Shown: positions 14,679 through 45,422 of the stretch, piece by piece
Layout of the letters: each line of letters starts with the position of its first letter
Numbering within the stretch: the first letter of the stretch is position 1
Origin: an uncultured Poribacteria bacterium
GTDB lineage: Bacteria > Poribacteria > WGA-4E > WGA-3G
Assembly (NCBI GenBank): GCA_958295855.1
Contig: OY282383.1
Location: 1,840,481-1,904,480, forward strand
Reading direction: 5' to 3'
Length of the DNA stretch: 64,000 nucleotides
Program-made: the position numbers and the translations under genes
Notes under the pieces: model-generated
The model's input: the letters and a program-made list of their open reading frames with translations, nothing else
Databases searched by the model: none
What the model was told of the DNA's origin: nothing

Positions 14679-16199
14679 CTACGGGGGAGTGAGCATTGCA
14701 GCGATGTCTTCTGGGAGCTCAACGCCATGTTTCTGCTCAAAATCTGCAATACTTGCATAAGAGTCGTGAAATAAAGCAATGATATCCTCCTCCATGTTTC
14801 CAACTGTAGTCAGGTCCGATTTGGCTTTTTCCCATTCTTGCACGGCTAATAGTGCGAAGAAGCGATTGCTGTAGAACAGAATTCTATCCGATTTGAGCCG
14901 TATAGCTTGGTTACAGTCTTCAATGGCGCGCTGGAATTCGCCTCTTTTGTAGTAAGCGACACCCCTATTGTAATAGGCCTCGGCAAAATCTTGATTGAGT
15001 TGTATCGCTTGGTTAAAGTCTTCAAAGGCGCTGTCAATCTCATCTTTTTTTCCGTAAACGACACCCCTATTGTAATAGGCCTCGGCAAAATTTGGATTGA
15101 GTTGTATCGCTTGGTTATAGTCTTCAATGGCGCTGTCAATCTCATCTTTTTTTCCGTAAACGACACCCCTGTTGTTATAGGCACCGGCAAAATCTTGATT
15201 GAGTTGTATCGCTTGGTTATAGTCTTCAAAGGCGCTGTCAAAATTGTCTTTTGCAAAGTAAGCGTAACCCCGATTGTAATAGGCCTCGGCAGAATTTGGA
15301 TTGAGTTGTATCGCTTGGTTATAGTCTTCAATGGCGCTGTCAATCCTATCTATTGTCTCGTAAGCGACACCCCTGTTGTAATGAGCCATGAAGACAATGG
15401 AGGTATCCTCTGGCTTCAACCGTATGACTTCGGTGTAGTACTCAATAGCATCATCCAGGTTACCGTTCTGGTGCGCTTCAAGACCGCGTTGCAGATAATC
15501 TTGGGCATCGGGTTCAATGTATGGTTTATCGTGGGCATGTAGACGAGCGAACCCATCAAAATCTGGATAAATATTGGCTTCGGTGATACCTGATATTTTA
15601 TCGAGAGATGTTCGGATGTCTCGCTTGCTATCTTTTCGGATGACACATTCAGCATCTGCATCAATTGGGTCGCCGCTAAATACAAAGATGGATTGTTGGG
15701 CGATAATGCGGTTGTTCTGAAGTTTGGGTTGCCATTGATATCGTGGATATCGCCCATTTTCGGGCTTGAAAAAATGCTCAATATCCTCTTTTACCAATTC
15801 GGGATTAACTGTTTTAAAGCGGGCTGGATCATCGCGTCGGACAGCGAAGACTTTGCCGTTTGCTTCCCGCTTGCAGGCGAACCAGAGCGCGACCAGGGCA
15901 CTACGCGTAAAGTCTATCAAGCAGGTGGCAGCACCGAAGTGCTGGAGTTCTGCGAGTAGTTCTAGATCGGAAAGTTGTTGGCCGTCTCTTTGATCGTGTC
16001 CCAAACTTCGTGCCTTTTCTATCAGATCCTTATTGATTTTGAGTAGTTTACTCGGATTATTTCTGTCGGTTTCTGGTAGGCGGCGGTAGGCGGATGCCTC
16101 TATTTTGTAACATTTCGTGGAAACACCACGAAACAGGTACTGTCCATCGCTAAATTGTGCTGCCCATTCTATAAACTCGCTTAGGGTTGTGACAGGCAT
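14679..16199 (-). CDS. FRG domain protein with tetratricopeptide repeats
   Basis: A 506-residue two-part protein. The first about 150 residues are an FRG domain (the FRG motif is in QYLFRGVS, with conserved LLELQHFGAAT-like and CLIDFT segments). Residues about 230-470 are six or seven TPR units of 34 residues with the pattern AYYNRGVVY..A(I/F)EDYNQAIQLNP, encoded by 102-base DNA repeats. The start at 16199 has GGAGAG about 9 bases upstream. FRG domains are frequent in phage-defence loci, and the next genes upstream form a Pycsar-like pair. The antisense strand is also open across the TPR DNA, an artefact of the repeat. Confidence 0.85.
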   Translation of the reverse strand: MPVTTLSEFIEWAAQFSDGQYLFRGVSTKCYKIEASAYRRLPETDRNNPSKLLKINKDLIEKARSLGHDQRDGQQLSDLELLAELQHFGAATCLIDFTRSALVALWFACKREANGKVFAVRRDDPARFKTVNPELVKEDIEHFFKPENGRYPRYQWQPKLQNNRIIAQQSIFVFSGDPIDADAECVIRKDSKRDIRTSLDKISGITEANIYPDFDGFARLHAHDKPYIEPDAQDYLQRGLEAHQNGNLDDAIEYYTEVIRLKPEDTSIVFMAHYNRGVAYETIDRIDSAIEDYNQAIQLNPNSAEAYYNRGYAYFAKDNFDSAFEDYNQAIQLNQDFAGAYNNRGVVYGKKDEIDSAIEDYNQAIQLNPNFAEAYYNRGVVYGKKDEIDSAFEDFNQAIQLNQDFAEAYYNRGVAYYKRGEFQRAIEDCNQAIRLKSDRILFYSNRFFALLAVQEWEKAKSDLTTVGNMEEDIIALFHDSYASIADFEQKHGVELPEDIAAMLTPP

Positions 16200-16252
16200 A
16201 ATGCTCTCCTTTTCCACAATGCTAATTTTTCCCAGATGAAGTTAGACAGTTG

Positions 16253-22390: not shown

Positions 22391-23356
22391 ATGCAATTGA
22401 AACACACATGTCATGTACTTCTGCTCCTGGGGCTACTTTTTCCCGCTACCACTGTCGCACGCTTTAATGACATCGGGGTAGGGGCGCGGCCCCTCGGACT
22501 CGGCGGGGCGTTTGTCGCACTCGCCGATGATAGCAATGCCCCTAACTACAACGCCGCCGGCTTAGGCTACATAGATGCAATTCAGGCGGGGGCCACTTAT
22601 GCACAGCGATTTAACGGACTCATTACCTATAACGCTATTGGTGGCGTTATACCGCTTGGCGGTGCTGGGGTTATCGGCGCAAATATTGGCATCTTGGCAG
22701 AAGATTCGGAAATTTATCGGGAACAGACGCTGCGGTTGGCTTATGGCAACGCTGTTCTCAAGCAAATTGCTATCGGAGCCACCCTGAAACTCTTCAGCAC
22801 TTCCTTCGATGAAGCGAATGAATTCGTTAGCGAGAATCCCTATTTCACGCAGACTTCTGCTTCAGCCGTTTCGTTTGATGTAGGCGTGATTGCCAAGCCT
22901 GCAACCGGACTGAGCCTCGGCGTTTCCGCGGAGAATTTACTTCCTGCAAACATGAGCATCTCCGAATTGCACACAGATTCGGTGCCTCGGCACATCCGTG
23001 CTGGTGTTGCATACAGGCTGGAATCTATTGCTGAGATGAGCGCGCAGGGCGAGGTAGTGAGCAACTTGTTGAAATCCAGTTTAGTCATTGTGGAGGTCGC
23101 GAACCGCAGTAGTGAGATGCATGTACGCGCCGGGGCAGAACTCTGGCTGAATAAAGCCATCGCTGTACGTGGCGGGTATGGCGTCGCTTCTAACAGAACG
23201 GGCGGAAGTGGCACCGCAACAACCCTAACCCTCGGCGGAAGTGCGCGAATCCCGGTGGGCAGTGCTGCCTTTCAACTTGATTATGGATTCCAAATGCTTA
23301 CGGGTGATTTTCAAGATAATACGACACAGCGGGCTTCAGTCAACCTGCTGTTTTAA
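22391..23356 (+). CDS. PorV/UPF0164-like outer membrane beta-barrel protein
   Basis: A 321-residue exported protein with a signal peptide (about residues 1-22) and the family opening GARPLGLGGAFVALADDSNA then NYNAAGLG, followed by alternating strands of an outer-membrane barrel and an aromatic C-terminal residue (NLLF). Relatives include the PorV/PorQ proteins, which in Bacteroidota act in type IX secretion. The next gene encodes a secreted protein with a FlgD/T9SS-like C-terminal domain, which makes a secretion role plausible but unproven. Confidence 0.8.
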   Translation: MQLKHTCHVLLLLGLLFPATTVARFNDIGVGARPLGLGGAFVALADDSNAPNYNAAGLGYIDAIQAGATYAQRFNGLITYNAIGGVIPLGGAGVIGANIGILAEDSEIYREQTLRLAYGNAVLKQIAIGATLKLFSTSFDEANEFVSENPYFTQTSASAVSFDVGVIAKPATGLSLGVSAENLLPANMSISELHTDSVPRHIRAGVAYRLESIAEMSAQGEVVSNLLKSSLVIVEVANRSSEMHVRAGAELWLNKAIAVRGGYGVASNRTGGSGTATTLTLGGSARIPVGSAAFQLDYGFQMLTGDFQDNTTQRASVNLLF

Positions 23357-23373
23357 AACATAAGCGGAAACTG

Positions 23374-23393
23374 GGCGGAGAAAGGGCTCCGCC
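23374..23393. repeat. Hairpin GGCGGAG/CTCCGCC before a start codon
   Basis: A 7-base perfect stem followed by TTTACAAG. Similar GC-stem hairpins followed by CCTTACAA or CTACA lie ahead of genes at 28982, 26194 and 49320, and in variant form at 10583. Confidence 0.6.
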
Positions 23394-23416
23394 TTTACAA
23401 GCCAAAAGGAAGTGTT

Positions 23417-24799
23417 ATGAAAAAGATAGTGTTCGCTTGGATGCTTATCGGTAGTCTGCTCGTCTCCAGCAACAGTTATAGCGCGGTTACCTCTGTTGGG
23501 GAGATTAACGTCGTCGGCCAAACCAAAGGGGTTGTTCCTGCCAGTTCAACGGTGCCGCTGCTCGTCACGCTTGTCGTCGACCGGTCGTTGGCAGAGCCGG
23601 GAGAAGAAATTAAAACTATTGAAATTGTGATGCCGCCCGGATTTCTAACGCAATCGTCCAACTTCAAAGGCATATCACGGGACGGCACCAAAATCGCAGC
23701 CAGCGTCTCCACCGGTGGAGGCAACGTACTGCGCGTGGTACTCGCAGATGTCATCGTCGATTTCCAGAACTCGATTTATGAAATCACATTTGACTGTCGA
23801 ACACCGGAGAGCGTCATACGGGAGGCAGTGTTCAGAGCGCGCCTACGAAACCTGCAAGACGGGCCCATCGGCGAATTTATCCGCTCAGGGCAGGCAGATG
23901 GAAAAATTAACAACGACGACTTTACCTTACAGGTAATTCCGAATGTACCGCCTGATGCCGTTACAGGCTTTACCGCCGAACCCGACAGCACCGGTGAAAA
24001 CGATGTCACCCTCCGCTGGCAAAAATCCGAAGACCCGGATGTCAACGGTTATCTCATCTATAGGGATAAGGAGCTTCCCATTCGTATTGAAAATCGTTCA
24101 TCGACCACGTTTCGTGATGTCAACGTACTTCCGGGGAACCATACGTATAAGATAACTGCTTACAAAACGCTTTTTTTGCAATCGGAACTTTCCGCTACAC
24201 AAACGGTGGACGTATTACCGGACACTGCCGCGCCACAACCACCGCCGATGCTAGACATTGTTACCTCAAGCGATGGTGTTGAAATTTTGTGGAAGCCAAG
24301 CGTCAGTCGTGACGTAACAACATACCGAATTTTGTTCGGTTCATCGGCAAACGCGCTTGAACTACTACCCAATGGCGAGATACACGAGAAAAAAACGGAA
24401 TATAAATTTGTTGATACCCGCCCTTTGTCTGTAGGCAGTTTTACTTATGCTATTGTCGCGATTGACGAGGCAGATAACGTCTCAGCACCAATACAAAAAA
24501 GACTCCGCATATTTGATGAACCTTATCCGAATCCGTTTACGCCCCTCTCGCTGGATGCCGATTTCAACACCGTTATCTTCCCCGCCCGCGCGATTGAAGA
24601 TGTTGAGGGCGAGTTCAGCGTGCTTCTCTTTAACCTGAATGGGATGCTCGTGAAGACCTTAACGGCACAATTCGGCGAAACGGAACTAAAGTGGGATGGG
24701 AAAAATGAGGAAGGCGAATTCGTTGAAAGCGGCGTGTACGTCTATCAACTCCAAGTCGGAGAGAGTTTTAAAACGGGCACTTTAATCCTTGCTAAGTAG
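23417..24799 (+). CDS. Secreted fibronectin-type protein with FlgD/T9SS-like C-terminal domain
   Basis: A 460-residue protein with a signal peptide (about 1-23), an N-terminal beta domain, two fibronectin type III-like domains (about 180-270 and 275-375, each with a W/Y core and DxNGYxIYRD or TYRILFGSS strands), and a C-terminal Ig-like module of about 80 residues (NPFTP ... GMLVKTL ... WDGKNEEGEFVESGVYVY). That last module is typical of FlgD-Ig or type IX sorting domains. It is probably cell-surface or extracellular. The neighbouring PorV-like barrel may assist its export. Confidence 0.7.
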   Translation: MKKIVFAWMLIGSLLVSSNSYSAVTSVGEINVVGQTKGVVPASSTVPLLVTLVVDRSLAEPGEEIKTIEIVMPPGFLTQSSNFKGISRDGTKIAASVSTGGGNVLRVVLADVIVDFQNSIYEITFDCRTPESVIREAVFRARLRNLQDGPIGEFIRSGQADGKINNDDFTLQVIPNVPPDAVTGFTAEPDSTGENDVTLRWQKSEDPDVNGYLIYRDKELPIRIENRSSTTFRDVNVLPGNHTYKITAYKTLFLQSELSATQTVDVLPDTAAPQPPPMLDIVTSSDGVEILWKPSVSRDVTTYRILFGSSANALELLPNGEIHEKKTEYKFVDTRPLSVGSFTYAIVAIDEADNVSAPIQKRLRIFDEPYPNPFTPLSLDADFNTVIFPARAIEDVEGEFSVLLFNLNGMLVKTLTAQFGETELKWDGKNEEGEFVESGVYVYQLQVGESFKTGTLILAK

Positions 24800-25104: not shown

Positions 25105-26163
25105 ATGAACAGATTAAAGTTATACGCACCTCGGTTCGGGCAAAGCAGTTTAAAGCTAACTTCGCATTTAGCGATTCTCATAGCAGTGATGCTCGCTTGT
25201 TCCGTTGTAATTTCTTTACCGACTGCGGAAGGGTGGACTATCTTACAAGAACGCGACCCGGAGGTTCGGGATTATATGTCTATCGCTTTCACAAGCAAGA
25301 CTGTTGGCTGGGTAGTCGGTGCCGCATCGTTTGAAGATTTTGAAAATCCCGGCTTCATCGGACATACCATGAATGGTGGTAAAACGTGGCAAAAATCGGA
25401 AATCAAAATTGCAGCCGATTTAGTCGAAGTCTACTTCTTGGATGAGAAACACGGCTGGGCAGTCGGTGCGGACGGCACAATTGCCGCTACGACTAACGGC
25501 AGAGACTGGGAACTCCAAACGAGCAAAGTTGGCAATAGGCTTAAGAGCATCTACTTCGTTAATAAAGAGGTTGGGTACGCCGCAGGAGAGAGTGATACTA
25601 TCCTCTCTACGAAAAATAGCGGCCGCTCATGGAAAGTGCTTCAAGGTGGACAACTCGGTGCTGTTGGCGATAGCGATGCAAATATGTACAATGCTATTCA
25701 GTTCCTTGACGAATCTACGGGCTGGGTTGCCGGCGTGCGCGTCATCCCCAGCAAAAAAGGGCAAAGTGCGTTGATTCAGAAGACTATGGATGAGGGGCAG
25801 AGTTGGGTTACCCAGGAGACCGGGAAAGAGGACATTCTTGAAGACATCTTCTTTCTTGATGCCTCAACCGGTTGGGCAGTCGGTGAAAACGGGGTAATTC
25901 TTCACACCAGTAACGGGGGCGAAACCTGGAAAGAGCAGTTCAGCGGTACACAAGAAACACTACGAAGTGTCGGGTTTGCAGATGAGAAGAACGGTTGGGC
26001 TGTAGGCGGTGATTTTGGAGTCGGTGCCATTCTAAACACCAATGATGGTGGTAAAACGTGGGAACTTGAAGATTCCAGGGAAAAAATAGTCAAAGTTTTT
26101 GTGCTTGATGGACAAAATGTGTGGGTAGCGAGTTCCACAGGAGCCATCATGCAAGCAAAATAA
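25105..26163 (+). CDS. Exported Ycf48-like beta-propeller protein
   Basis: A 352-residue protein with an N-terminal signal sequence and six or seven repeats of the type GWAVGxxGxIxxTxNGGxTW (for example GWAVGENGVILHTSNGGETW), the Ycf48/BNR propeller signature. In phototrophs, Ycf48 assists photosystem II assembly, but such proteins are common in non-phototrophs with unknown roles. GGGGAAA precedes the ATG. No linked gene suggests its partner. Confidence 0.82.
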   Translation: MNRLKLYAPRFGQSSLKLTSHLAILIAVMLACSVVISLPTAEGWTILQERDPEVRDYMSIAFTSKTVGWVVGAASFEDFENPGFIGHTMNGGKTWQKSEIKIAADLVEVYFLDEKHGWAVGADGTIAATTNGRDWELQTSKVGNRLKSIYFVNKEVGYAAGESDTILSTKNSGRSWKVLQGGQLGAVGDSDANMYNAIQFLDESTGWVAGVRVIPSKKGQSALIQKTMDEGQSWVTQETGKEDILEDIFFLDASTGWAVGENGVILHTSNGGETWKEQFSGTQETLRSVGFADEKNGWAVGGDFGVGAILNTNDGGKTWELEDSREKIVKVFVLDGQNVWVASSTGAIMQAK

Positions 26164-26365
26164 AGCGCGGGCATAAGGGGAACGGAAGACGCACGGAGAC
26201 AGCACTCCGCCCTTACAATCCCCTAAATTTGCATCTTGATGAATACAATGTAAGAAGGAAAAAAGTTGTTCACTTTTCGTTCACAACTTGGTTGGAGCGC
26301 GAGGATGCAAGATGAATTGCGCTACTACAAACCAGTCGACACTTTATCAAAGAGGAGGTACAATC

Positions 26366-27544
26366 TTGGAAAGTGCCATATTTGCTGAGCGAATGAGTCG
26401 CTTGGGAACAGAATCGGCATTTGAGGTCCTCGCCAAGGCAAAAGCTTTAGAAGCGCAGGGCAGAGATATTGTTCACCTAGAAATCGGCCAACCAGATTTT
26501 CCAACACCGGCGAACATTTGTGAAGCCGCATTCAAGGCGATGAAGGATGGACATACCGGCTACTGCCCATCTGCAGGCGTACATGAGTTCCGCGAAGTCG
26601 TCGCACAGCATATCACTGAGACCCGGGGCGTTACCATACATCCGGATGAGGTAACCGTAACACCCGGCGCAAAGCCGATTATCTTCTTCACTATTTTGGC
26701 GTTAATTGATGAAGGCGATGAGGTAATTTATCCCGAACCTGGTTTCCCTATTTACGAATCGGTTATTGACTTCATCGGCGGAAAAGCCGTACCGCTTCGG
26801 CTTCGCGAAGAGGTAGATTTCCGGTTCCGGATTGCAGATCTTGAGGCTGCCATCTCTGAACGGACTAAACTGTTAATTCTCAATTCACCACAGAATCCGA
26901 CAGGCGGCACGCTAACCGCTGCAGATCTTGAAGCAATTGCCGAACTCGCACTGAAACACAATTTTTATGTGCTTACAGATGAAGTGTATTCACGCATCCT
27001 CTACGAAGGCACCCATCAGAGCATTCTCAGCTTTCCCGGCATGAAAGAACAGACAATCCTGATCGAAGGGCATTCTAAAACCTACGCCATGACAGGATGG
27101 CGGTTGGGCTACGGCATCGCACCCCAGGCAATCGCAGACAAGATTACCCAATTGACGATTAACTCCAATTCTTGCACTGCAACCTTCACGCAAATCGCCG
27201 GAATAGAAGCACTCACGGGACCGCAAACCTTTGTTACACAGATGGTCGCGGAGTTCCAAAAACGGCGAGATGCGATTGTGGATGGGCTAAATGCTATTGA
27301 TGGCATCAGTTGTATCAAGCCCCTCGGCTCATTCTATGTTTTTCCAAACGTTGAGCAGTTGCCGATTTCGTGCGAAGCACTTGCTGATTATTTGATGGAT
27401 GAAGCAGGGGTTGCGCTATTGCCAGGTACGTCTTTCGGTAAATATGGCGATGGCTACCTCAGGCTTTCGTATGCCAATTCGTTAGAAAATATCCAGGAAG
27501 CGTTGCGCCGAATGGAAACCGCACTTGCGAACCTTGTTGCTTAA
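26366..27544 (+). CDS. Class I/II PLP-dependent aminotransferase
   Basis: About 392 residues. EIGQPDFPTP near the start, NSPQNPTGG in the middle, and the PLP-lysine motif SKTYAMTGWRLGYG mark the aspartate/alanine aminotransferase family. A TTG at 26366 is chosen because AGAGGAGG lies 7 bases upstream. An open frame back to 26288 has no such site, and the first ATG (26393) would cut into the conserved N-terminus. It probably transaminates an amino acid; specificity is unclear. Homoserine kinase lies downstream beyond a repeat region. Confidence 0.9.
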   Translation: MESAIFAERMSRLGTESAFEVLAKAKALEAQGRDIVHLEIGQPDFPTPANICEAAFKAMKDGHTGYCPSAGVHEFREVVAQHITETRGVTIHPDEVTVTPGAKPIIFFTILALIDEGDEVIYPEPGFPIYESVIDFIGGKAVPLRLREEVDFRFRIADLEAAISERTKLLILNSPQNPTGGTLTAADLEAIAELALKHNFYVLTDEVYSRILYEGTHQSILSFPGMKEQTILIEGHSKTYAMTGWRLGYGIAPQAIADKITQLTINSNSCTATFTQIAGIEALTGPQTFVTQMVAEFQKRRDAIVDGLNAIDGISCIKPLGSFYVFPNVEQLPISCEALADYLMDEAGVALLPGTSFGKYGDGYLRLSYANSLENIQEALRRMETALANLVA

Positions 27545-28022
27545 TCGCGACTTAGACTTGAATCAGAAACCTCCGACGAGAGCTACAGTGCATTGTTAGA
27601 GCTGTCTTGCCAATGGTATTTGCCCCTGCTTTGCAGGGGTTTCATACCAAGTTGTGAACGAAAAGTGAACAACTTTTTTATTTCTTACATTTGCTGATTA
27701 CTCCGCAAGGAAAGACGAAAAACTCCGACGAGAGTTACAGTGCATTGTTAGACCTGTCTTGCCAATGGTATTTGCCCCTGCTTTGCAGGGGTTTCATACC
27801 AAGTTGTGAACGAAAAGTGAACAACTTTTTTATTTCTTACATTTGCTGATTACTCCGCAAGGAAAGACGAAAAACTCCGAATCGCGACTTAGACTTGAAT
27901 CAGAAACCTCCGACGAGATCTACAGTGTATTGTTAGACCTGTCTTGCATTCTGATTACTCCGCAAGGAAAGACGAAAAACTCCGCAAGGAAAGACGAAAA
28001 ACTCCGCAAGGAAAGACGAAAA
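27545..28022. repeat. Tandem 152-base repeats and 22-base microrepeat
   Basis: Two copies of a 152-base unit begin at 27571 and 27723, followed by a partial third from 27908. Each full copy carries a CCCCTGC/GCAGGGG hairpin (27615-27648, 27767-27800) and an AAGTTGT/ACAACTT inverted repeat. The segment TCGCGACTTAGACTTGAATC occurs at both 27546 and 27881. The stretch 27957-28022 is three exact copies of a 22-base unit (ACTCCGCAAGGAAAGACG core). The array ends just before homoserine kinase. Confidence 0.95.
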
Positions 28023-28045
28023 ACTCCTTAAAGGAAATTTGTTGT

Positions 28046-28960
28046 ATGCCTCGTAAAATTATCGCGCGTATTCCTGCCAGCACAACCAATCTGGGCCCCG
28101 GGTTCGATGTGCTAGGGCTTGCCCTTCAACTCTATAGCACGATTACGTTAGAAACCACAGCAACCGGTACGGAAGTCGTTGTTAGTGGGGTGGACGCGGA
28201 TAAGATGCCAAGTACGCCCGAACACATAGCGTTTCAAGCAGTAGAGCTTATTTTCAAACGGAGTGGGGTGAAACGCCCTAAAGGCTTCAAATTGAGCATA
28301 GCGAATGGCATCCCAGCAATTCGTGGGTTGGGCGGCAGTGGAACGGCCGTCCTTGGCGGGTTGCTAACGGCGAATGTGTTGTGCGGTACCCCCTTCTCTG
28401 ATGCAGAGCTCCTCAACTTTGCTACAGCGTTGGAGGGGCACCCGGATAACGTCGCTGCTTCCTTGTTGGGGGGGCTCGTTGTCTCAGCACAAGAGGATGC
28501 ACAGGTGCATACCGTTCGGTTGGAGTGCCCCGATGCACTTCACATTGTACTCGCCATCCCGGATTTCCCGCTATCCACGGAACAAGCGCGGCAGGTATTA
28601 CCCAAATCGGTCGGTTTTGAAGATGCAATCTACAATACGAGTCGAAGCACCCTGCTCATTGCCAGCATCGCCACCGGACAATTTGAGATGTTACCGATAG
28701 CCATGAAGGATAGGTTGCATCAACCTTACCGCACCTCGCTGATTCCGGGGTTTGATGATGTGGCTGAAGCGGCTACTGCTGCGGGGGCTATCAGTGTTGC
28801 GTTGAGCGGCGCGGGCCCCACCGTCGCAGCCTATTGTTTGGGATATATTGAACAGGTTGCTAATCAGATGCGAACTGCCTTCAACAAGCATCAGATTGCG
28901 TGTGATACGAAGATTCTGAAACCGGATGCTGAGGGCGCGAACGTGTTCATTTCAGCCTAA
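28046..28960 (+). CDS. thrB: Homoserine kinase
   Basis: A 304-residue GHMP kinase that phosphorylates homoserine for threonine synthesis. ARIPASTTNLGPGFDVLG at the start and the ATP-binding loop PAIRGLGGSGTAVLGG (GLGSSAA type) near residue 90 identify it, with the C-terminal ALSGAGPTV motif. The start at 28046 has AAAGGAAA upstream. A longer frame reaching into the 22-base microrepeat is not credible. Confidence 0.93.
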   Translation: MPRKIIARIPASTTNLGPGFDVLGLALQLYSTITLETTATGTEVVVSGVDADKMPSTPEHIAFQAVELIFKRSGVKRPKGFKLSIANGIPAIRGLGGSGTAVLGGLLTANVLCGTPFSDAELLNFATALEGHPDNVAASLLGGLVVSAQEDAQVHTVRLECPDALHIVLAIPDFPLSTEQARQVLPKSVGFEDAIYNTSRSTLLIASIATGQFEMLPIAMKDRLHQPYRTSLIPGFDDVAEAATAAGAISVALSGAGPTVAAYCLGYIEQVANQMRTAFNKHQIACDTKILKPDAEGANVFISA

Positions 28961-29025: not shown

Positions 29026-31884
29026 GTGATGATGTCAAATTTTCATGCGGAGAGCATTGCATCAATATTAAATCGATTCAACACCAACATGGAACAGGGG
29101 TTGAGCGCAGAGGCTTTGCAGCAAGCAAAAGCGCGATACGGCGAGAATACGTTTGAATCGGAAGAAAGAACATCTCCATTCAAGATGTTTTTGAAACATT
29201 TGCTCACTTGGCGAATCCTTGTGCTCGCGTTGGCAACAGCGATTTTAACCGCTTCTTTTATCAGCAGTGACAGGAGCTTTCCCCTATACTCAGCCGGGGT
29301 TTTCGCAGTTGTTCTAGTTTTCCATATCTGTTGGGCATACCTATCCGCGTACCTCATTCGCCGCCGCGAGGACAGGATTCGTGACAATTTGGTGCTTAAC
29401 CTTCAAGTTATCCGGCAAGGGAAGTTTGAAAAATGCACGCCTGCGGACATTGTGCCGGGAGATTTGCTCTCTCTCAATGCAGGCGATTACATTCCTGCAG
29501 ATGCCAGAATCATTGAAGCGGATGGACTTATGCTCGACGAATCCGCGCTGTTTGGTACTGAAGGCCCAGTACCGAAAACCCGCGAGGATATTCCAGATGG
29601 CTCCGTACCCCCTCAAAATCAGAAAAACATGGCATTTGGCGGGACTTACGTGGTAGCAGGATATGGGTTGGCAGTTGTTGTTCAGACAGGGAAACAGCTT
29701 GAAATGTGGAGGCAACGCCGAACTGTGCGTCCTGTGCTAAGTGAGTCTACCTCTGCAGAAAAAGAAATAACGTCCTTACATAACGTTGTAAAAGTGACAG
29801 GGGTAGTCCTAGCTGCGATAGTTGTTGCTATAGCGTGGTGGTTTGAGTATCAGGATAACTTAACCGATTGGCATGCGCTGGTACATCTTGGTGTGCTATT
29901 TATCGTTGCTGCCGCACCGCAAAATGCTGCAGCACTTCTCCGATTGTCCTTTGCTCAACATGCCCAAAAGCTGCTGGAAAAAGGAGTCGTGCTACGGAAC
30001 TCACATAGCATTGAGAAATTAAGCCGCATCAACGCTTTTTGTGCGAATGAAAACGGCCTCTCTACCACGCGCTCCCTCGCTATTTCTAATCTATTTGTAG
30101 ATGAACAATTGGTGGATGGGACAGCTTGGAAGGAGTGGTTGAGCTCCCTGGAAGCACTAACACCTGAAGAGAGAAAGGAAGCTGTTAATGCAATTCCTCC
30201 CGGAGGGAAAATCCCACAAGGTGCTGCGAGGTTAATATACACTGCTGGCCTCGGAACCTCTGGCGAACAATATCAGGATCGAAATGAGGCAGTGTTTGCG
30301 CCGCAGCGACTTATCCAAGAAGACATGGAAAAGTTGGGGTACCAACTTGATGAATTAAGAACTAAACTCCCCCTTGTCAATGAATACCCTTGGACACTTA
30401 ACTTCGGGTACCAAATGCAGGTGTTTGAGTTAGCCCCTGGCGATTATCTGAATATCATCTTTGGGGATGCCCAGATGGTGCTTGACACTTGCGCGTTTAC
30501 CTCCACCAATGGCCAAGTAACGCCCCTGCAAGAAGAGCGGTACGAAATGTACTGTGAAGTTATCGACTATCTGCGGAGTACGAAAGCCGAGGTCTATGGG
30601 GTTGCCTTTTACTCCTCAGATGTTATTCTGAAACCGCAGGAGATGGAAGACGATCACATCTTTTTAGGGTTTATCAGTTTTTCTCCCAGCAATAACGAAG
30701 AAATAAAGGCACTTGTGAAAACAAGCCTCGATTCCGGGCTGAAAATTGTCCTCCTCACAGAAAATGATGAACAACGGACAGTTGATTTTGCAAAAGATCT
30801 TGGCCTTATCCACACGCAGAAGGCAGTTGCGTCACGAGAAAAACTGGAGGCCCTCACCCGCGAGAATTTTGATGCGGAGACCGCGAAATGGTCTGTCTAT
30901 TCCCAACCAACCTGGGAACAACGTCGGAATATCGTACTGAGTTTGCGGCACCAGGGCCATTCTGTCGGCTTCTTGGGCGAAGGTGTCTCCGACCGGCGCG
31001 CGATGGCCGTTGCCAATGTTGCCCTTGCAAACATCGATTATGCATCACACGTCGTGCAGGCCGCTGCCCACGGTTTGATTCACAAGGGGGGCTTCCGGGC
31101 GGTAAAAGAGGGGCTGCTGCATGCACGCGAAACTTATCATAACGCCGCCGGTTTCCTACGGTGGGGTATCTCCTGCACCCTCTCCCTGCTTCTCACGCTT
31201 ACCTTTGGCACGGTGCTGCACTATGCATATAAACTACCTATGCCGTTGACGTTGACGCAGGTAGTTTGGGTGCAATTTCTTGTAAGCTTGCTACCCTCGC
31301 TCGGCGCAGGAGCAGATAGGATATTTGCTGATGAAAAGCACCACCGGCCAACTCTGTTTTCAACTGCACGATTCCTGTCTAAAACATCGGAGTTGGACAT
31401 TATATGCCGGGCAGTGACTATCAGCTTGATGACACTCATCCCGTTCTTTTTTATGCTGTGGCGTTCATCCGCTTTGTCCACTACAGTCGGCGTTTCAGAA
31501 TTACTAAGCGATATAATTTCTACAGCAAATTTGGCTACAGCAAATTCGGCCTCATCAGGGTGGGGAGCAAATGCATCAGATATCGCGGTCGCGCGAACGG
31601 CTGCTTGCACCACGCTCATCTTTACCCAGCTAGCTGCCTGTTGGCAGGCTTTGCGCTACCCGTGGGAATCGCTCTTTCAAAGAATGTTCGCGAACTACCG
31701 GTTACTCGTTATCTTTTCAATCGTTATTGGGCTCCACCTGATTGCACTCTACGTTGAACCTATCAACGCATTTTTGGGCATGGCACACCTCAAATGGGAA
31801 TGGCAATGGACGCTCCTGTTTAGTTTCGCTTTGTTCCTGTTGCCCCTAAATCTGGCGATAAATTCGCGCTCAGACGCTGACTAA
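29026..31884 (+). CDS. P-type ATPase homologue lacking catalytic motifs (pseudoenzyme)
   Basis: A 952-residue protein with full P2-type architecture: a cation-ATPase N domain (residues 4-60), paired membrane helices, an actuator domain with PADARII (157-163) and DESAL (171-175), a P/N region and a six-helix C-terminal part. Each functional motif is altered. DKTGTLT is NENGLST (341-347), so the phosphorylated Asp is Asn341. The TGES position reads FGTE, PEGLP reads PQNAA (298-302), the TGD motif reads TEND (578-581), and GDGxND reads GEGVSD (651-656). The frame is intact, so it is probably a maintained pseudoenzyme in the inner membrane, perhaps a sensor or scaffold. Role unknown. Confidence 0.85.
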   Translation: MMMSNFHAESIASILNRFNTNMEQGLSAEALQQAKARYGENTFESEERTSPFKMFLKHLLTWRILVLALATAILTASFISSDRSFPLYSAGVFAVVLVFHICWAYLSAYLIRRREDRIRDNLVLNLQVIRQGKFEKCTPADIVPGDLLSLNAGDYIPADARIIEADGLMLDESALFGTEGPVPKTREDIPDGSVPPQNQKNMAFGGTYVVAGYGLAVVVQTGKQLEMWRQRRTVRPVLSESTSAEKEITSLHNVVKVTGVVLAAIVVAIAWWFEYQDNLTDWHALVHLGVLFIVAAAPQNAAALLRLSFAQHAQKLLEKGVVLRNSHSIEKLSRINAFCANENGLSTTRSLAISNLFVDEQLVDGTAWKEWLSSLEALTPEERKEAVNAIPPGGKIPQGAARLIYTAGLGTSGEQYQDRNEAVFAPQRLIQEDMEKLGYQLDELRTKLPLVNEYPWTLNFGYQMQVFELAPGDYLNIIFGDAQMVLDTCAFTSTNGQVTPLQEERYEMYCEVIDYLRSTKAEVYGVAFYSSDVILKPQEMEDDHIFLGFISFSPSNNEEIKALVKTSLDSGLKIVLLTENDEQRTVDFAKDLGLIHTQKAVASREKLEALTRENFDAETAKWSVYSQPTWEQRRNIVLSLRHQGHSVGFLGEGVSDRRAMAVANVALANIDYASHVVQAAAHGLIHKGGFRAVKEGLLHARETYHNAAGFLRWGISCTLSLLLTLTFGTVLHYAYKLPMPLTLTQVVWVQFLVSLLPSLGAGADRIFADEKHHRPTLFSTARFLSKTSELDIICRAVTISLMTLIPFFFMLWRSSALSTTVGVSELLSDIISTANLATANSASSGWGANASDIAVARTAACTTLIFTQLAACWQALRYPWESLFQRMFANYRLLVIFSIVIGLHLIALYVEPINAFLGMAHLKWEWQWTLLFSFALFLLPLNLAINSRSDAD

Positions 31885-31974: not shown

Positions 31975-33966
31975 CTAAACCCAGAATCCGTAGGTAGGAA
32001 TTCCCGCGATAATTCCGAGGAGAGTCCACAGGCTCCCCACTATAAACTCACCCAAGATCAGCCCTAAAAAGAAAGGTGCTATCTTGCGATGCCTCACTAC
32101 GCCGCCATACTTGAGAATGAGCCACTTAATCAACCAACTCATGAAAAGGCAACTCCACGTAACGTTCATTCCCCAACTCGTAGAGATAGCAAACCCAGCC
32201 GGGTGAAATGGCCACCACACAAACCGCATCCGAAATAGCATCAGCACCGTGGTCAGCAGAAAACCGAGCCCCATGAACCCACTCTCCGGAATGAGCGTGT
32301 CTTCCGGGGCTTGCAACCATCCCGCGAGGCGTCGGTAGGGTTCGATGCCGAAAGCACTTAAAGAGGGCCAATAAGCACGAACCTCCATACCCAAGCGGTA
32401 TCCCCTGTCAATTAATGCCCAAAACCCTGCCAATGAACCTAAAACGGTGGCAAGTGTTAAGGCGAAGATAATTCGATGCATCGACATGTTCGTCCGCTCC
32501 ACAATTTTAAAGCCTTCCAACTGATGCGGCATCGGATGACTCCGATGTGCCCGGTTGATGAACCAAAACATGGAGAACATAACGAGGTTCTCTCTTCCCA
32601 AGCGGCGTGTCCCAACCGTTCGGCTCAGGATTTCGTCGGGCCCGGAATAGTGTAAGTCATGTACAGGTGTGCCTAACTCCGCTCGCATCCGGGTAATGGC
32701 GATGGAAATCATATAGTAGATAACGAAAAATAGGAACATTACCCACAGTTCTGCCCCGCCGTAGTAGCAAAAAAGCACAAGGAACGCCATGACTCCGATG
32801 AGGCAAAGCACAGCAGCGCGATAGGACATCGGTTCATCCAACGCCTTGTCCCCAGGGGACACGCCTACAGAAGTGTCACGCCGCGTATCCATGCCCAGCA
32901 CTGTTTTGGCAACATGCAACAGATGCTTACGACTTGCCCAAATTCCCAAAATGCACAGCGCAAGGTACCCACCGGACGCTTGCTCATTCATATACGGAAA
33001 GCGGGGCAGGCTCCGCAGCCCCATAGCGGCTCCGACAACCCGCATGAATCGCCAATACCAGAAGAAAAACCAACACGAAAACGAAAGATCGAGGGGGATA
33101 AAGAAACCGAGTCCTATCGCAAACGGATAGAGTGCAAACGGTATTCTGCCCATCGCGTTCCAGGGACTCTCCGTAAAAATCTGGAAACTCCGTACCCGCG
33201 TCCGCAATTCAGGTAAAACAGGATACAGAAAGTTCACACCATTCCATAGGGCGAGCGCGCCAGCAATACCAAAGCCAAGCCACATGAGTTTGTTCTGAAA
33301 AAGGCGGTTCGGTTGCGTTTCTGTCAACTGGAGTGGTAGTTGAATGATTGGGTAGCTCAGTTTTTCATGTTCAATCCACTGTTTTCGGACAATTATATTG
33401 ATGCAAAGCATGCCGAAAATCAATACACTAATGAAAGCTGTCCACCAGAGCACGGGTGGTGCCCACCCAAGCAAGGTGTGAGTCGTATAGAGCGGCAAAT
33501 CACCCTCATAATAGCCTTGTAAAAGCTTACTATCGCTAATCGTGAGCCACTCTGGGAGGAAGGGGACAAACAACTGTTGCCACTCGTTTTCTGGGGTTGC
33601 AAAGCGGAAGGCATGCCCTAACATCGGCACTAAAATTTCAAGCATGTCGTGTCCAGTAATGCCCGAAGCGATAGAAAGCATCAGGTAAACGATAACCAAC
33701 TCACTCTGTACCAACGCTAGGCGCGGTAGGAAACGCCGCAGGAGTTGATTCGCACCAATCACAACGAACAGACTGAAAATCACATTGAAAAACAGCGAAA
33801 TTGTCACCGGGTGGCCCGAATACCGAATAACTTCCATTTCAATAACCCAGTAGCAGTTAATCGGAATCAGGATAATGGCAATCAGGATAGATTTAAGCGT
33901 GACACCGTGGGAAGGCACGCGCACAGTGCTGGGAGAGAATGCTAACGAAGGTGAAGTTTGTTCCAT
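31975..33966 (-). CDS. Large polytopic membrane protein, DUF6785/DUF6784-like
   Basis: A 663-residue protein with about 14 hydrophobic segments. The arrangement (an N-terminal cytoplasmic tail, long membrane pairs, and a conserved AELGTPVHDLHYSGPD loop near residue 440) recalls the DUF6785-type proteins abundant in Poribacteria-like and Planctomycetes genomes, distantly like oligopeptide transporters. Recognition is from memory of the family, not a search. It is monocistronic. The transport substrate is unknown. Confidence 0.65.
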   Translation of the reverse strand: MEQTSPSLAFSPSTVRVPSHGVTLKSILIAIILIPINCYWVIEMEVIRYSGHPVTISLFFNVIFSLFVVIGANQLLRRFLPRLALVQSELVIVYLMLSIASGITGHDMLEILVPMLGHAFRFATPENEWQQLFVPFLPEWLTISDSKLLQGYYEGDLPLYTTHTLLGWAPPVLWWTAFISVLIFGMLCINIIVRKQWIEHEKLSYPIIQLPLQLTETQPNRLFQNKLMWLGFGIAGALALWNGVNFLYPVLPELRTRVRSFQIFTESPWNAMGRIPFALYPFAIGLGFFIPLDLSFSCWFFFWYWRFMRVVGAAMGLRSLPRFPYMNEQASGGYLALCILGIWASRKHLLHVAKTVLGMDTRRDTSVGVSPGDKALDEPMSYRAAVLCLIGVMAFLVLFCYYGGAELWVMFLFFVIYYMISIAITRMRAELGTPVHDLHYSGPDEILSRTVGTRRLGRENLVMFSMFWFINRAHRSHPMPHQLEGFKIVERTNMSMHRIIFALTLATVLGSLAGFWALIDRGYRLGMEVRAYWPSLSAFGIEPYRRLAGWLQAPEDTLIPESGFMGLGFLLTTVLMLFRMRFVWWPFHPAGFAISTSWGMNVTWSCLFMSWLIKWLILKYGGVVRHRKIAPFFLGLILGEFIVGSLWTLLGIIAGIPTYGFWV

Positions 33967-34742: not shown

Positions 34743-35510
34743 CTAATATTCTTCCATAGGAGAGATATTCAGAAATTGATACGGGTCAAAACCCGCATCA
34801 TCAAACTCAATGACTTTAAAGTTTGGGGGGATCTTCCCAGTCCTGATGTCGTCACGGGTGGGGCCTTCGCCAGCATCTAGCATACTCGAAACGTAACGAT
34901 GAATGCTTCCATCTGGCAACTCGTATTCTCGCCAACGCACATAGACAACGTTGTCGTAGTGCGGATAGATCTTTCCATTACGGGTACTTCCGCCGACAAT
35001 TTCCCGGTCGCCTTGCTGCCATAATTTGACGAGAACTCGATCTATGAGTTCAATATTTTTTCGGGCTTCCGAGGGAAAATCGGCTATCAAGGACGGCTCC
35101 CGCCCCCAAATGGGTTCACCGAAATAATCCGCAGGCACTTCTGGATAGGGACCAAAGCCAAAGGGTGAGACCGGCACCTCGGTGGTTTCTTCTGCACCTG
35201 TCTCGTCAGGTAAGAACGCATCCAGAGAAGTAAATGCATCCGTTTCGTCAGACATGGTTTGCGTGTCATCGGTTTCAAGAGGCGTAGATGTTTGTCCAAG
35301 TGCCTCGGTGCCTGTCGGAGCCGCTGCATCCTGTGCAGTGCGTGTCTCTTTCTTGATTTCTCGCTGTTGCAGAAACTGCTGCGTTCTCGCCTCGTCTGCT
35401 TTGATACCGCGTTCAACATGCCAACTATAGAGCAGGCTACCTACAACGATGAAAATGCAGAAGAGGCTCCCTGCGAGTACACCTTTATTTGAGAGGATGT
35501 CACGGAACAT
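34743..35510 (-). CDS. Membrane-anchored protein of the PFGFGPYPEVP family
   Basis: 255 residues: a single membrane anchor (about residues 12-30), an acidic, Thr/Glu-rich linker of about 90 residues, and a C-terminal domain opening with SPFGFGPYPEVPADY. The start at 35510 (AAGGAGAG upstream) is preferred to 35597. Its first about 45 residues and their DNA are almost identical to the gene at 44667-45422, while the C-terminal domains diverge. The domain after the linker probably lies outside the inner membrane. Function unknown; it is one of several paralogues in 34-45 kb. Confidence 0.7.
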   Translation of the reverse strand: MFRDILSNKGVLAGSLFCIFIVVGSLLYSWHVERGIKADEARTQQFLQQREIKKETRTAQDAAAPTGTEALGQTSTPLETDDTQTMSDETDAFTSLDAFLPDETGAEETTEVPVSPFGFGPYPEVPADYFGEPIWGREPSLIADFPSEARKNIELIDRVLVKLWQQGDREIVGGSTRNGKIYPHYDNVVYVRWREYELPDGSIHRYVSSMLDAGEGPTRDDIRTGKIPPNFKVIEFDDAGFDPYQFLNISPMEEY

Positions 35511-35741
35511 AGTGTTTCTCTCCTTTTGGGCACCGCCGTCGTGTTTCGGTGCGATTGTGGGAGGGGAATCATTATCCGCTCTGTGGGACTTATACATATC
35601 TGATCAAACCTTGTCAAATCTAACAGGTTCTCCCATCAGTTGCCACACTTCCTCATTCAACACTCACTGCCTACCAGCGTAGGGCTTACACGAGCTCCAG
35701 AGGCGTTTGACGTCTCCCGCGAGCTACGGGCGACATGCTTG

Positions 35742-36473
35742 TTATGACGGACACAGGTTGATTGCTGCGTTGACGTCGCGATCGCACGTGAAACCACACT
35801 CACCGCAGTGGTAGGTACGTTCAGAGAGGTCAAGTTCCGTCTTTTTGTGTCCACAACTACTACACGTCTTACTGCTGGCAAAGAACATGGCAGCTTCCGT
35901 GATGGGGATACCCCGCCGTTCTGCTTTATACTTTATCATCGTCAAAAAGCGGTATAGAGATGCATCGGCTATATGCTTTGCAAGTTTCTTGTTCTTTAGC
36001 ATACCGCTGACGTTCAACGTCTCAATACCAATAGCCGAAGCTTTCCGAACGATGGACGTGCTTGCTTTATGATGACTATCTAATCTGATGCAGGAGACTC
36101 TGTAGTGAATGCTGGCAAGCCGTTTACGGGCCTTATGCCAGTTACTTGAGAACCTTGTCTTCCGTGACAGCATTCGCCCGGCACGCCTTAACTTCTTTAG
36201 GTAGCGTTTCAATGGGCGTGGGTTCTCATATTTAGTCCCATCGGATAGCGTTGCCAGTGTATTGATACCCACGTCAACGCCTACAGGCAGACGGGCGTCT
36301 ATTAACGGCATCTGAACCATCGGATTACCTTCATCAGTGCGAACCAGAATAGACACGAACCATTTATCATCTTTACGGGAGACGACGACTCTGCCGATAT
36401 CGCCATGCCATCGCAACTCCTCCGTCATCCGCACCCATCCGATGACAGGCAGCTTGACGCGCTTCCGTTCCAC
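35742..36473 (-). pseudogene. tnpB: tnpB C-terminal part (RuvC and zinc ribbon), separated by insertion
   Basis: The 3' part of an IS200/IS605-family TnpB, an RNA-guided nuclease. RuvC residues are present: Asp in VGVDVGINTLA, Glu in IGIETLNVSGM and Asp in TCDRDVNAAIN, with the zinc ribbon CSSCGHKK...YHCGECG. It is in the same frame as the N-terminal part at 36528-36875 but is separated by a 45-base hairpin element carrying three in-frame stops, so no full protein can be made. No tnpA is adjacent. A separate internal start here is possible but not supported. Confidence 0.88.
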
Positions 36474-37397: not shown

Positions 37398-38861
37398 TTA
37401 CTTTTCTGACTCCGGACGTTTCTGAATGAGGCGTTCAACGTGTGTGGCTATCTCCGGGTCTGATTCCTTGAGGCGCCGGAGCCCTTCTTCGGGCCCGTAT
37501 TGATTTAACGTAGCCCGCGCGCGGTTAAAACGCTCTGGTGAAAAACGTTGCCGAAGGGCTTTTTCAAAATCTTCTTCGGCGGGCAATTCGGGTAGAATCT
37601 GTTTCTCGAGTTCCGCCTGAATGTCGGCATCGCTTTTTGTGAGGTGTTCCAACACTTTCTCGGTTTCTTGGCGCGCCTGTTTGAACTGTTTTTGCACGTC
37701 TCGTGCGGCATCCGGTGGTGCCTTGGGAATATTTCGCGTGTCAGGAAGTGGTACTGTCTCGGTGAAAGTATCCATATAAAAATCGGCGGCCTCTTGTTGG
37801 CTGAAGTCTCTGTTCCCCCTTTCTTCATCGGACAACTCATTGATGGCGTTGAGCATCTCCTCGCGTGTGATGACCGGGGGCGGCCCCGTAAGGATATTTC
37901 CGTCCTCACCGATATAGACGACCTCGTAATGCTCTGGGGGGATGCCTTTGAATAAGAGTTTAAACTCTTGAAGTTCCGTGAGGGAACCGCCATAAAACGT
38001 TGCCCCGGTGCCCTTTTTCTTCACGTAGATTCGGTTGGATTTCGTCGGGTGGAAGATCTTCTGATTTTTGCCAACAAAAATACCACCCGTGCTTTCGGGA
38101 TCTGCCTTCATCGCTCCACGAACGAGTTGGTTTTCCCAAAGTTTTCGCTCAATATAGGCATTTTTATAGGTTTCCCAGTCATCGGTGGGTGGAATGCCGA
38201 AGTTCCCCGAAGCCCATGCAGCCGGCTCGTTTTCGAGGCGCGTCAAGTCATGTCGGGGGAACTGGTACCGAACGAAATCGCCATAGTCTTCAATAGCAAT
38301 TCCTCTATCGAGGAGCATCTGTATCCATTCGGCTTGGGGGTATTTTTCAGCGGTTTCCGGGGTTTCCAATACCCGGTTATATTGCTCTGCGAATTCTGCG
38401 AGAATCGCCTCGGTGGTTTGGAGCCCTTCATACCTTGGGAGCGGCAAGGTTTTCACTTTATGTGTAAGAGTGAGCTCTGGGGGCGTGTCAGACTCTTTCT
38501 TGAAATTTGGCAATTCCGAGCGAAGGTGTGCGCGTAAATCGCTCCTTATCATCTCAAGCGTCATTTCGTCAGGCGGTTGATCACTGGGATATTTTCTCTT
38601 GGATTCCTTGAGAAATCCCTGGATGCCTGCTTCGACCTGTTCTTCGATCCATATCTCCCAGGGGTCTTCGGATTCCATCTCTTTCTTCGAGGGAAGGTGC
38701 GTCTTTTTTCCAGCACTGAAACGTTCCGTTGTTTGTGTGCTCTGTTGACGCAGCCTGCTCCAGTTATTTTTCGCCAATGGTGTCGTACGGAAGATATAGA
38801 TCCCTGCGAAGATGAAGAGCGCGATGATTGGTATGAGTATCAATCGTTTTCTATTTTTCAT
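37398..38861 (-). CDS. Large membrane-anchored uncharacterised protein
   Basis: 487 residues: an N-terminal anchor (about 6-24) followed by a long hydrophilic, Glu/Lys/Pro-rich region with helical stretches and an EEGLRRLKESDPEIATHVER end. AGGAGA lies 9 bases before the ATG. Topology suggests most of the protein is periplasmic. It groups by position and architecture with the other anchored proteins at 34-45 kb, but shares no clear motif with them. Function unknown. Confidence 0.65.
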   Translation of the reverse strand: MKNRKRLILIPIIALFIFAGIYIFRTTPLAKNNWSRLRQQSTQTTERFSAGKKTHLPSKKEMESEDPWEIWIEEQVEAGIQGFLKESKRKYPSDQPPDEMTLEMIRSDLRAHLRSELPNFKKESDTPPELTLTHKVKTLPLPRYEGLQTTEAILAEFAEQYNRVLETPETAEKYPQAEWIQMLLDRGIAIEDYGDFVRYQFPRHDLTRLENEPAAWASGNFGIPPTDDWETYKNAYIERKLWENQLVRGAMKADPESTGGIFVGKNQKIFHPTKSNRIYVKKKGTGATFYGGSLTELQEFKLLFKGIPPEHYEVVYIGEDGNILTGPPPVITREEMLNAINELSDEERGNRDFSQQEAADFYMDTFTETVPLPDTRNIPKAPPDAARDVQKQFKQARQETEKVLEHLTKSDADIQAELEKQILPELPAEEDFEKALRQRFSPERFNRARATLNQYGPEEGLRRLKESDPEIATHVERLIQKRPESEK

Positions 38862-40454: not shown

Positions 40455-41114
40455 TTACTCAACCCCCGGGGGGAGTGTATACCCATGCTTAACAAGCATA
40501 TCTCGCATCATCTGCCAACCCCCTTCATAACTCTCAGGCGGAAGAGCTTTGAGAATCAGAATGTTAGGTAGCGCGTTTTTGGCACGCAAAATGTAGGCAG
40601 TCTGTTCTTCAAGGGGGAGTGATTCGAGATGGCTAATCATCTCTGGCATTCTCTGATTGAGAATTTGCATCACTGCTGCAGTTTTTGCATCAATCTTGGC
40701 ATGACGGGCATCACGTGTTTCTACGAGACGACGTGATTCTTCGATTAACCATTGTGTATCGGGATGAAGTGCTTCTTCTGTAGCTGCCGGTGCGGTTTGG
40801 ACATCCGGATTATCTTTGGTGGAGTCTTCGCTGGCATCGTCCGTTGATTCTTTAAAAGTGTCGTTCATGGATACCTCAGAAGTGTCGTCCGTCGATGCCG
40901 CGCGGGGCGCGTCCGTTGGCGTGTGTTCATCTGTCGTTGCCTCGGTAGTCTGTGGGGTTACCGTTGATTTTTCGGGGGCAATGGGTGTCGTTGCCTTATA
41001 GATTTTCTTCGGTGCCGCCTTTAGCATTTTTTGTGCCGGGCGATGATGTCCGAAATACCAGAGTGCCCCAAGGCATACGAAAAGAAAAACGGGAAGTATA
41101 ATCCGTTTTTTCAT
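40455..41114 (-). CDS. Membrane-anchored protein with acidic linker
   Basis: 219 residues: an N-terminal anchor (IILPVFLFVCLGALWYF), a Thr/Asp/Glu-rich linker with short near repeats (DTSEVSMNDTFKESTDDASE) and a helical C-terminal domain ending WQMMRDMLVKHGYTLPPG, homologous to the end of the 39264-39965 product. The start at 41114 has GGAG about 10 bases upstream; the open frame back to 41255 is not supported. It probably faces the periplasm. Function unknown. Confidence 0.6.
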   Translation of the reverse strand: MKKRIILPVFLFVCLGALWYFGHHRPAQKMLKAAPKKIYKATTPIAPEKSTVTPQTTEATTDEHTPTDAPRAASTDDTSEVSMNDTFKESTDDASEDSTKDNPDVQTAPAATEEALHPDTQWLIEESRRLVETRDARHAKIDAKTAAVMQILNQRMPEMISHLESLPLEEQTAYILRAKNALPNILILKALPPESYEGGWQMMRDMLVKHGYTLPPGVE

Positions 41115-41247
41115 GGGTGGTTCTCCTTGTGTTTCATAAAAGGTTGTGTCCGGTTGTGAGGTTCCTATCTCGGCTATGACTCTCGTTATTAGGCAGGAGA
41201 ATTGATAACCGAGAAAGGAATCCGATTGTCCGGTTGTTTCTTTTCTA

Positions 41248-41358
41248 TTAGCCACAACTGCCAGAGTCAGGGTTTTGGCAGCTTCTTAACGCTTCTATAG
41301 CGGCATCGTCAGCTGCCTTAGCCTCATTTACAGCCCACTAGGCAGCACCTACGGCCAT
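41248..41358 (-). pseudogene. Short remnant with in-frame amber codon
   Basis: A frame reading MAVGAA, then TAG (41338-41340), then WAVNEAKAADDAAIEALRSC and a stop at 41248. The Ala/Asp-rich helix resembles a small secreted coiled coil. No ribosome site was found. Kept as a possible decayed gene. Confidence 0.2.
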
Positions 41359-44666: not shown

Positions 44667-45422
44667 CTAAGGTAGATTTAAGAATGTGTAGGGGTCGATA
44701 CCCGCCTCTTCGTAAGAAACAATTTTAATGTCTGATGGAATGTCAGCCTCGGTAAAATCGTCTCCCCTCGCTTCTATGATGCTTTCCAGACGCTCGCAAG
44801 CCTCTGCATCGCCTGCGGTTTCCGATACATATCTTTCGCCTGCCTCCTCATCCCATCTGATGTAGACTGTGTCATCAATCGTTGGGTATACCAAGCCGTC
44901 TTCCATTATGGCCCCGAGGGCATTTATCCCTTGAGAGATGAGTTTTATCTGAACGCGTACCATTAATTCGTGGTCCGCGGATTTCCGAGGCCATATATCG
45001 GCAGGCCATCCTTCTGGCACTTCTGGATACGCCCCGAAGCCAAACGGAGAGACAGGCACCTCGGCGGTTTCTTCCTCGGCGGAAACCATACCGTCCGGTA
45101 AGAACGCATCCGCCAGGTCAACACTCTCCGCGTTGTCTGCCGGTAATGCATCCGTGCCCTCGGACATCGCTTGCGTGTCCTCGTTTTCAACGGGCGTTTC
45201 CATGGAATCGAGTGTCTGAGTGTCTATCAACTCCCTAGTATCCTGGACTGGGTGATTCTCTTTCTCAGTTTCTATTTCTTGTAGAAACTGCTGCGTTTTC
45301 GCCTCGTCTGCTTTGATACCGCGTTCAACATGCCAACTATAGAGCAGGTTGCCTACAACGATGAGAATGCAGAAGAGGCTCCCTGCGAGTACACCTTTAT
45401 TTGCGAGGATGTCACGGAACAT
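44667..45422 (-). CDS. Membrane-anchored protein of the PFGFGPYPEVP family, head of cluster
   Basis: 251 residues with the anchor VLAGSLFCILIVVGNLLYSW, a long acidic linker, and a C-terminal domain starting SPFGFGAYPEVPEGW, with VYIRWDEEAGERYVSE matching the paralogues. The first about 45 codons are almost identical in DNA to 35510-35376. AAGGAG lies about 10 bases upstream. It is the first gene downstream of the sigma-54 promoter at 45807-45822, so it should be expressed when the adjacent activator is active. Function unknown. Confidence 0.7.
   Translation of the reverse strand: MFRDILANKGVLAGSLFCILIVVGNLLYSWHVERGIKADEAKTQQFLQEIETEKENHPVQDTRELIDTQTLDSMETPVENEDTQAMSEGTDALPADNAESVDLADAFLPDGMVSAEEETAEVPVSPFGFGAYPEVPEGWPADIWPRKSADHELMVRVQIKLISQGINALGAIMEDGLVYPTIDDTVYIRWDEEAGERYVSETAGDAEACERLESIIEARGDDFTEADIPSDIKIVSYEEAGIDPYTFLNLP

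Follow-up and report, generated by a model that had tools for sequence, protein, structure and literature searches.

The question raised by this locus is whether a P-type ATPase gene with broken catalytic motifs encodes a protein that is still maintained, and what such a protein might do. The gene lies at positions 29026-31884 on the plus strand of the window, a 64,000-nucleotide stretch of DNA from a Poribacteria genome of 5.53 Mb, and is annotated here as a full-length pseudo P2A-type P-type ATPase (pseudo-pump). The frame of 952 codons given in a preliminary description is present and open, counted from a GTG at 29026; translation probably begins at the ATG at 29032 instead, as judged from the 'MSxWY' start of the relatives. 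The motif readings of that description were also right: TGES is replaced by FGTE (aa 176-179, 29551-29562) with Thr178 at the position of the catalytic Glu, the PEGLP of TM4 by PQNAA (aa 298-302, 29917-29931), DKTGTLT by NENGLST (aa 341-347, 30046-30066), TGDN by TEND (aa 578-581, 30757-30768) and GDGxND by GEGVSD (aa 651-656, 30976-30993). The KGA of the ATP site in the N domain reads FGD (30460-30468), with F479 at the position of Lys515 (SERCA numbering is used for reference positions). All six motifs (DKTGTLT, TGES, TGD, KGA, GDGxND and PEGL) are broken, and the claim that every one was lost holds in this sense; it does not hold as a total loss, since some motif residues are kept, such as the last Asp of GDGxND and the kink Pro298 of TM4, which is followed by Q299 in place of Glu309. 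A basic residue, R633 (30922-30924), occupies the position of SERCA K684. The cation site is changed as well: in the TM5 segment RWGISCTLSL (31159-31188), in which W713 is conserved in the family, T718 and L721 stand at the positions of N768 and E771, and in the TM6 segment WVQFLVSLLP (31267-31296) Q750 and S754 stand at those of N796 and D800, so that no acidic residue remains in TM6.

The Pfam models Cation_ATPase_N, E1-E2_ATPase and Cation_ATPase_C matched the window protein above cut-off and in this order, the actuator (A) domain (about aa 127-235, 29404-29730) scoring 97.5 bits with PF00122. The HAD hydrolase and nucleotide-binding models of Pfam gave no match above cut-off, and Pfam showed no further domain within the 952 aa, including no guanylate cyclase fusion. 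The NCBIfam model 'HAD-IC family P-type ATPase' was barely passed (66.2 bits against a cut-off of 62.3), and the scores with the specific pump models of NCBIfam were far under every cut-off. No RNA element was found around the gene with Rfam.

A first contig search gave 20 full-length homologues of 57-66% identity, all from Poribacteria. A profile (A1) was then built from 25 diverse members and run against 85 Poribacteria genomes, a sample from one phylum consisting mostly of metagenome-assembled genomes. A full-length open copy was present in 78 of them and a partial or split copy in five (G048, G055, G056, G058 and G062); with this profile no copy was found in G027, which is 81% complete, or in G060, a genome with an intact pump of the P2 type. 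Across families, identity to the window protein falls from 67% to about 20%, and the frames measure about 900-980 codons almost everywhere (the one in G049, at the end of a contig, has 873). In G058 (64% complete) the pseudo-pump consists of two overlapping frames (locus L083, 4702-7558), reflecting a frameshift or an assembly error. Among the 25 diverse members, PF00122 matched all, PF00690 matched 24, PF00689 matched 23 and the Pfam HAD hydrolase model 12. A search with PF00122 in 28 genomes of the window's class gave two to three P-type ATPases in each (just one in G051), one of which was the pseudo-pump; the subset of the others that was read consisted of P1B-type metal pumps of the CPC kind, or in one case SPC, with nothing broken in their motifs. 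G060 and G061, both outside this class, have intact P2-type pumps.

To follow the losses through the family, 76 distinct full-length pseudo-pumps were aligned with 26 intact P2A pumps. The TGES Glu (E183) was kept in one of the 76, the Lys (K352) and Thr (T353) of DKTGT in one and four, the Gly (G626) and Asp (D627) of TGD in none and eight, the Asn (N706) of GDGxND in ten and TM4 E309 in eight; the KGA Lys (K515), the first Asp of GDGxND (D703) and the cation ligands N768, E771 and D800 were kept in no sequence at all. The phosphorylated Asp of DKTGT (D351) was Asp in 29 sequences and Asn in 42, the clade of the window protein having Asn. Intact P2A pumps have 155 conserved positions; loss affected 11 of the 16 with a functional role and 37 of the 139 others (Fisher p = 0.0012, the K684 position lying outside this set), and structural Gly and Pro as well as A-domain residues were retained. 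By entropy, variation within the family is lowest in the A domain; most structural residues conserved there in intact pumps are retained, with R130, G145, D146, D159, R161 and K184 as family invariants. The number of acidic residues per sequence in TM5 and TM6 was 1.04 and 0.96 in intact pumps versus 0.01 and 0.04 in pseudo-pumps; the loss of the ligands N768, E771 and D800 is an addition to the preliminary description. The breakage is not due to chance, as that description had argued, since 76 distinct homologues share it at these sites and keep open full-length frames. It had also proposed that the replacing residues would themselves be conserved, which applies to K352 (Glu in 67 of 76), K515 (Phe in 65), G626 (Glu or Asp in 74) and N768 (Thr in 59), but not to the inside of GDGxND, where the replacements vary freely (entropy 2.0-3.5 bits). 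The sole member with Glu at the TGES position is L076 (G053), a placement which depends on the alignment, and the sole member with Lys in DKTGT is L096 (G061); both residues are possibly traces of the path of loss.

With the TGES Glu, the DKTGT Lys and Thr, the KGA Lys, the TGD Gly-Asp, the GDGxND Asp and Asn and the cation ligands lost, pumping is not expected. From the established biochemistry of P-type ATPases, ATP-driven cation transport is very unlikely without D703, K352, K515, E183 and the carboxylates of TM5 and TM6. Some motif residues persist: the DKTGT Gly in 74 of 76 sequences, the last Asp of GDGxND (D707) in 75, and a basic residue at the K684 position also in 75 (Arg in 58, Lys in 17). 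D707, the basic residue and, in 29 sequences, D351 leave partial chemistry conceivable, and a cryptic active pump could be imagined that is autophosphorylated on another residue or runs slowly on D707, K/R684 and D351; the P domain is moreover the domain with the lowest omega (see below). Such a pump is nevertheless very improbable given the near-complete loss of D703, K352, K515, G626 and E183, the Asn at D351 in most members, the window protein included, the missing cation carboxylates and the Pfam HAD hydrolase match in just about half of the diverse members. Judged from its residues the family is very probably non-catalytic.

Selection was assessed by pairwise maximum-likelihood codon estimates on 22 close pairs with dS of 0.08-0.32. 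Omega was 0.105-0.279 in these pairs, which are non-independent, and omega = 1 was rejected in every one of them with likelihood-ratio values of at least 53. In a similar pair set the pseudo-pump had an omega of 0.161, similar to its neighbours: 0.055 for the aminotransferase, 0.062 for DUF6785, 0.122 for thrB, 0.155 for the Ycf48-like gene and 0.167 for the gene with the T9SS tail. The selection is strongly purifying and far below the dN/dS of 1 named in the preliminary description as the mark of relaxation; neither relaxed selection nor an intact orthologue, the two findings it had set against its own reading, was encountered. Pooled by domain, with approximate borders, omega was 0.093 for the P domain, 0.128 for A, 0.171 for M, 0.182 for N and 0.342 for the N-terminus. 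No single result is more telling than the strong constraint on a P domain without its chemistry. The broken motifs and the free drift inside GDGxND are what a decaying pseudogene or an assembly error would give. This explanation is hardly credible, as 78 genomes, which by their record titles come from several independent assembly projects, have open frames of some 900-980 codons, omega is low, and the spacing from TGD to GDG hardly varies, at 73 residues in all but one of the 14 members listed and 72 in that one. For the family as a whole, dN/dS, conservation and the independent assemblies rule out a pseudogene or a sequencing error.

The structure of the window protein was predicted with AlphaFold2 from an alignment of 25 sequences (pLDDT 83.5, pTM 0.75), and Foldseek matched the model in the PDB to Na,K-ATPase in the E1.Mg2+ state (TM-score 0.73/0.71) and to SERCA E1.Mg2+ (0.71/0.69). 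The model of L096, the deepest-branching member and from another class (pLDDT 80.3, pTM 0.76), was matched to SERCA E1-sarcolipin (0.82/0.79). The whole P-type fold appears to be present, closest to pumps in the E1 state, a preference that may stem from the predictor itself. One match was to a pump that palytoxin had turned into an open cation channel, which fits the possibility that the protein is a passive transporter or channel, an uncoupled or scramblase-like route that lets neutral or zwitterionic solutes or lipids pass through the uncharged TM4-6 pocket. The transmembrane domain is under purifying selection, the TM4 kink Pro is kept in 73 of 76 sequences, and pocket residues are replaced consistently by Thr, Gln and Leu, as if re-tuned (N796 by Gln in 58, D800 by Thr in 53). 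Packing could explain the consistent replacements equally well, no newly conserved lining of charged or aromatic residues has been shown, and a channel would not account for the P and A domains being under the strongest constraint; we consider a passive route unlikely. Since constraint remains strongest on those domains which are mobile in a functioning pump, a regulator acting by shape change or surface contacts, or a scaffold, is favoured with modest confidence over a passive pore.

In a site-heterogeneous tree, 17 pseudo-pump representatives, L096 among them, were separated from 16 intact pumps by a branch supported at 100/99; a quick LG+G4 tree did not fix the position of L096. In the trees the family grouped, as a sister or from within, with the P2A set and not with P1B or P3B. 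Independent repeated losses were rejected on the single clade of the site-heterogeneous tree, and a local loss in one genome on the family-wide occurrence of the losses. The simplest reading is a single loss at or near the base of Poribacteria. No pseudo-pump was found outside the phylum in about 640 genome searches (two overlapping samples, mostly outside the phylum), a score-thresholded search that more divergent pseudo-pumps below the thresholds would escape. The best outside scores were 629 bits with profile A1 and 661 bits with profile A2, full-length members reaching 876 bits or more with A1, and about 70 distinct outside loci that were read all had intact motifs. One seemingly broken match, L190, proved to be an ORF on the wrong strand, the true frame being intact.

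The pseudo-pump gene forms a run on the same strand with the genes of a Ycf48-like BNR beta-propeller protein (25105-26163), a PLP-dependent (aspartate-type) aminotransferase (26288-27544) and, directly upstream, a ThrB-like homoserine kinase (27944-28960). The thrB gene directly preceded the pseudo-pump in 36 of the 45 homologous loci whose flank could be read, among them loci of distant families with pseudo-pumps sharing about 20-30% identity with that of the window, a pattern which suggests shared transcription. The exceptions were genus g8, L080, L082, L084 and L096. One could suppose from this arrangement that the protein moonlights as a membrane subunit or anchor for the propeller, the aminotransferase or the homoserine kinase, and in L082, where thrB is missing, the Ycf48-like gene still adjoins the pseudo-pump. 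The link is not obligatory: in genus g8 (L068-L073) the pseudo-pump gene has moved out of this run, its neighbours there being ribosomal-L27-like and RNase-G-like genes, and the surroundings of L084 and L096 contain no thrB. The gene order with biosynthetic enzymes may reflect shared transcription alone, and a part in such an assembly seems to us a rather poor prospect.

Several other features of the window were recorded. Upstream of the operon, a PorV-like outer-membrane protein adjoins a protein with a weak match to a T9SS sorting tail (22391-24799, plus strand), in a gene order conserved in relatives. Convergent with the pseudo-pump is a DUF6785/DUF6784 membrane protein (31975-33966, minus strand), highly conserved in relatives as its omega indicates. 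A 512-aa ORF (14679-16217, minus strand) has an FRG domain at its N-terminus and, after it, a long TPR array. A TnpB-like RNA-guided nuclease (35742-36473, minus strand) lacks its N-terminal third, the IS200 TnpB model matching from position 122, and is a probable remnant. ORFs of 251-487 aa at 34743-35597, 37398-38861, 40455-41255 and 44667-45422 have no Pfam match.

Taken by its sequence, the family is a pseudoenzyme: it is homologous to an enzyme, its catalytic residues are missing and it is kept by selection. The reading as a pseudoenzyme put forward in the preliminary description is borne out by the family-wide losses, the purifying selection and, at some sites, the conserved replacements. 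With the sites for burning fuel and for binding ions both broken, its job is most likely one other than pumping. We propose, with a probability of roughly 0.58, that it is an ancient P2A pseudo-pump of single origin, kept as a non-pumping membrane protein with a regulatory or scaffolding role. If the protein is non-catalytic, such a role is rather probable; its regulatory form is our guess, made by analogy and by elimination. A single early loss in Poribacteria would have removed from a P2A-type cation pump both the chemistry of autophosphorylation and the carboxylates that bind cations. The ten-helix bundle, the actuator domain and the P/N headpiece would still fold, probably resting in an E1-like shape, and the phosphoenzyme cycle could not run. 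A ligand or partner could bind, perhaps in the uncharged TM4-6 pocket or on the headpiece, and binding might be relayed by contacts of the A and P domains to other proteins, possibly encoded by the neighbouring genes. The more specific version, a stand-alone pseudoenzyme family arising once near the base of the phylum, persisting where the genomes of the class that were read show no working P2-type pump and acting as a membrane receptor or regulator that uses the conformational machinery of the pump without ATP hydrolysis, is given by us slightly less than an even chance. Such a deeply conserved dead pump would be a natural experiment on the use of the P-type ATPase fold without phosphorylation, and on which residues are structural and which catalytic. 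It is also a warning about the automatic annotation of such proteins as P-type ATPases: since the window protein passes the NCBIfam HAD-IC cut-off, such genomes would be listed as having a cation pump that is probably absent from them.

Among kinases and phosphatases, pseudoenzymes are a familiar phenomenon. For 'P-type ATPase' combined with 'pseudoenzyme', no paper was found in the open-access full-text literature. Compared with prokaryotic P2A ATPases (Ca2+ pumps of the LMCA1 type, with the fold of SERCA and SPCA1), the pseudo-pump has the same length, domain order and predicted fold, the same A-domain invariants and TM4 kink Pro and an adjoining position in the tree, but it is without the TGES Glu, the Lys and Thr of DKT(G)T, the KGA Lys, the TGD Gly-Asp, the first Asp and the Asn of GDGxND and the cation ligands E771, D800 and N768. 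Sensing together with transport has been proposed for P-type ATPases in the P1B 'transceptor' idea (PMC10654040); there, unlike in the pseudo-pump, extra metal-binding termini on active pumps are used. A precedent for a P-type module in signalling is given by Plasmodium GC-alpha and Toxoplasma GC, in which a P4-ATPase module acts upstream of cGMP synthesis; the DKTGT Asp is present in these proteins, and the need for ATPase activity has been shown with a point mutant (PMC7858053, PMC6592433), whereas in the pseudo-pump the site is broken. In Plasmodium GC-beta the P4-ATPase domain has degenerated, most signature residues being not identifiable (PMC6592433). That protein is of the eukaryotic P4 type and fused to a guanylate cyclase, and the poribacterial one is P2A-derived, unfused and stands alone, but both have a P-type ATPase module that is without its signature residues and yet has been kept.
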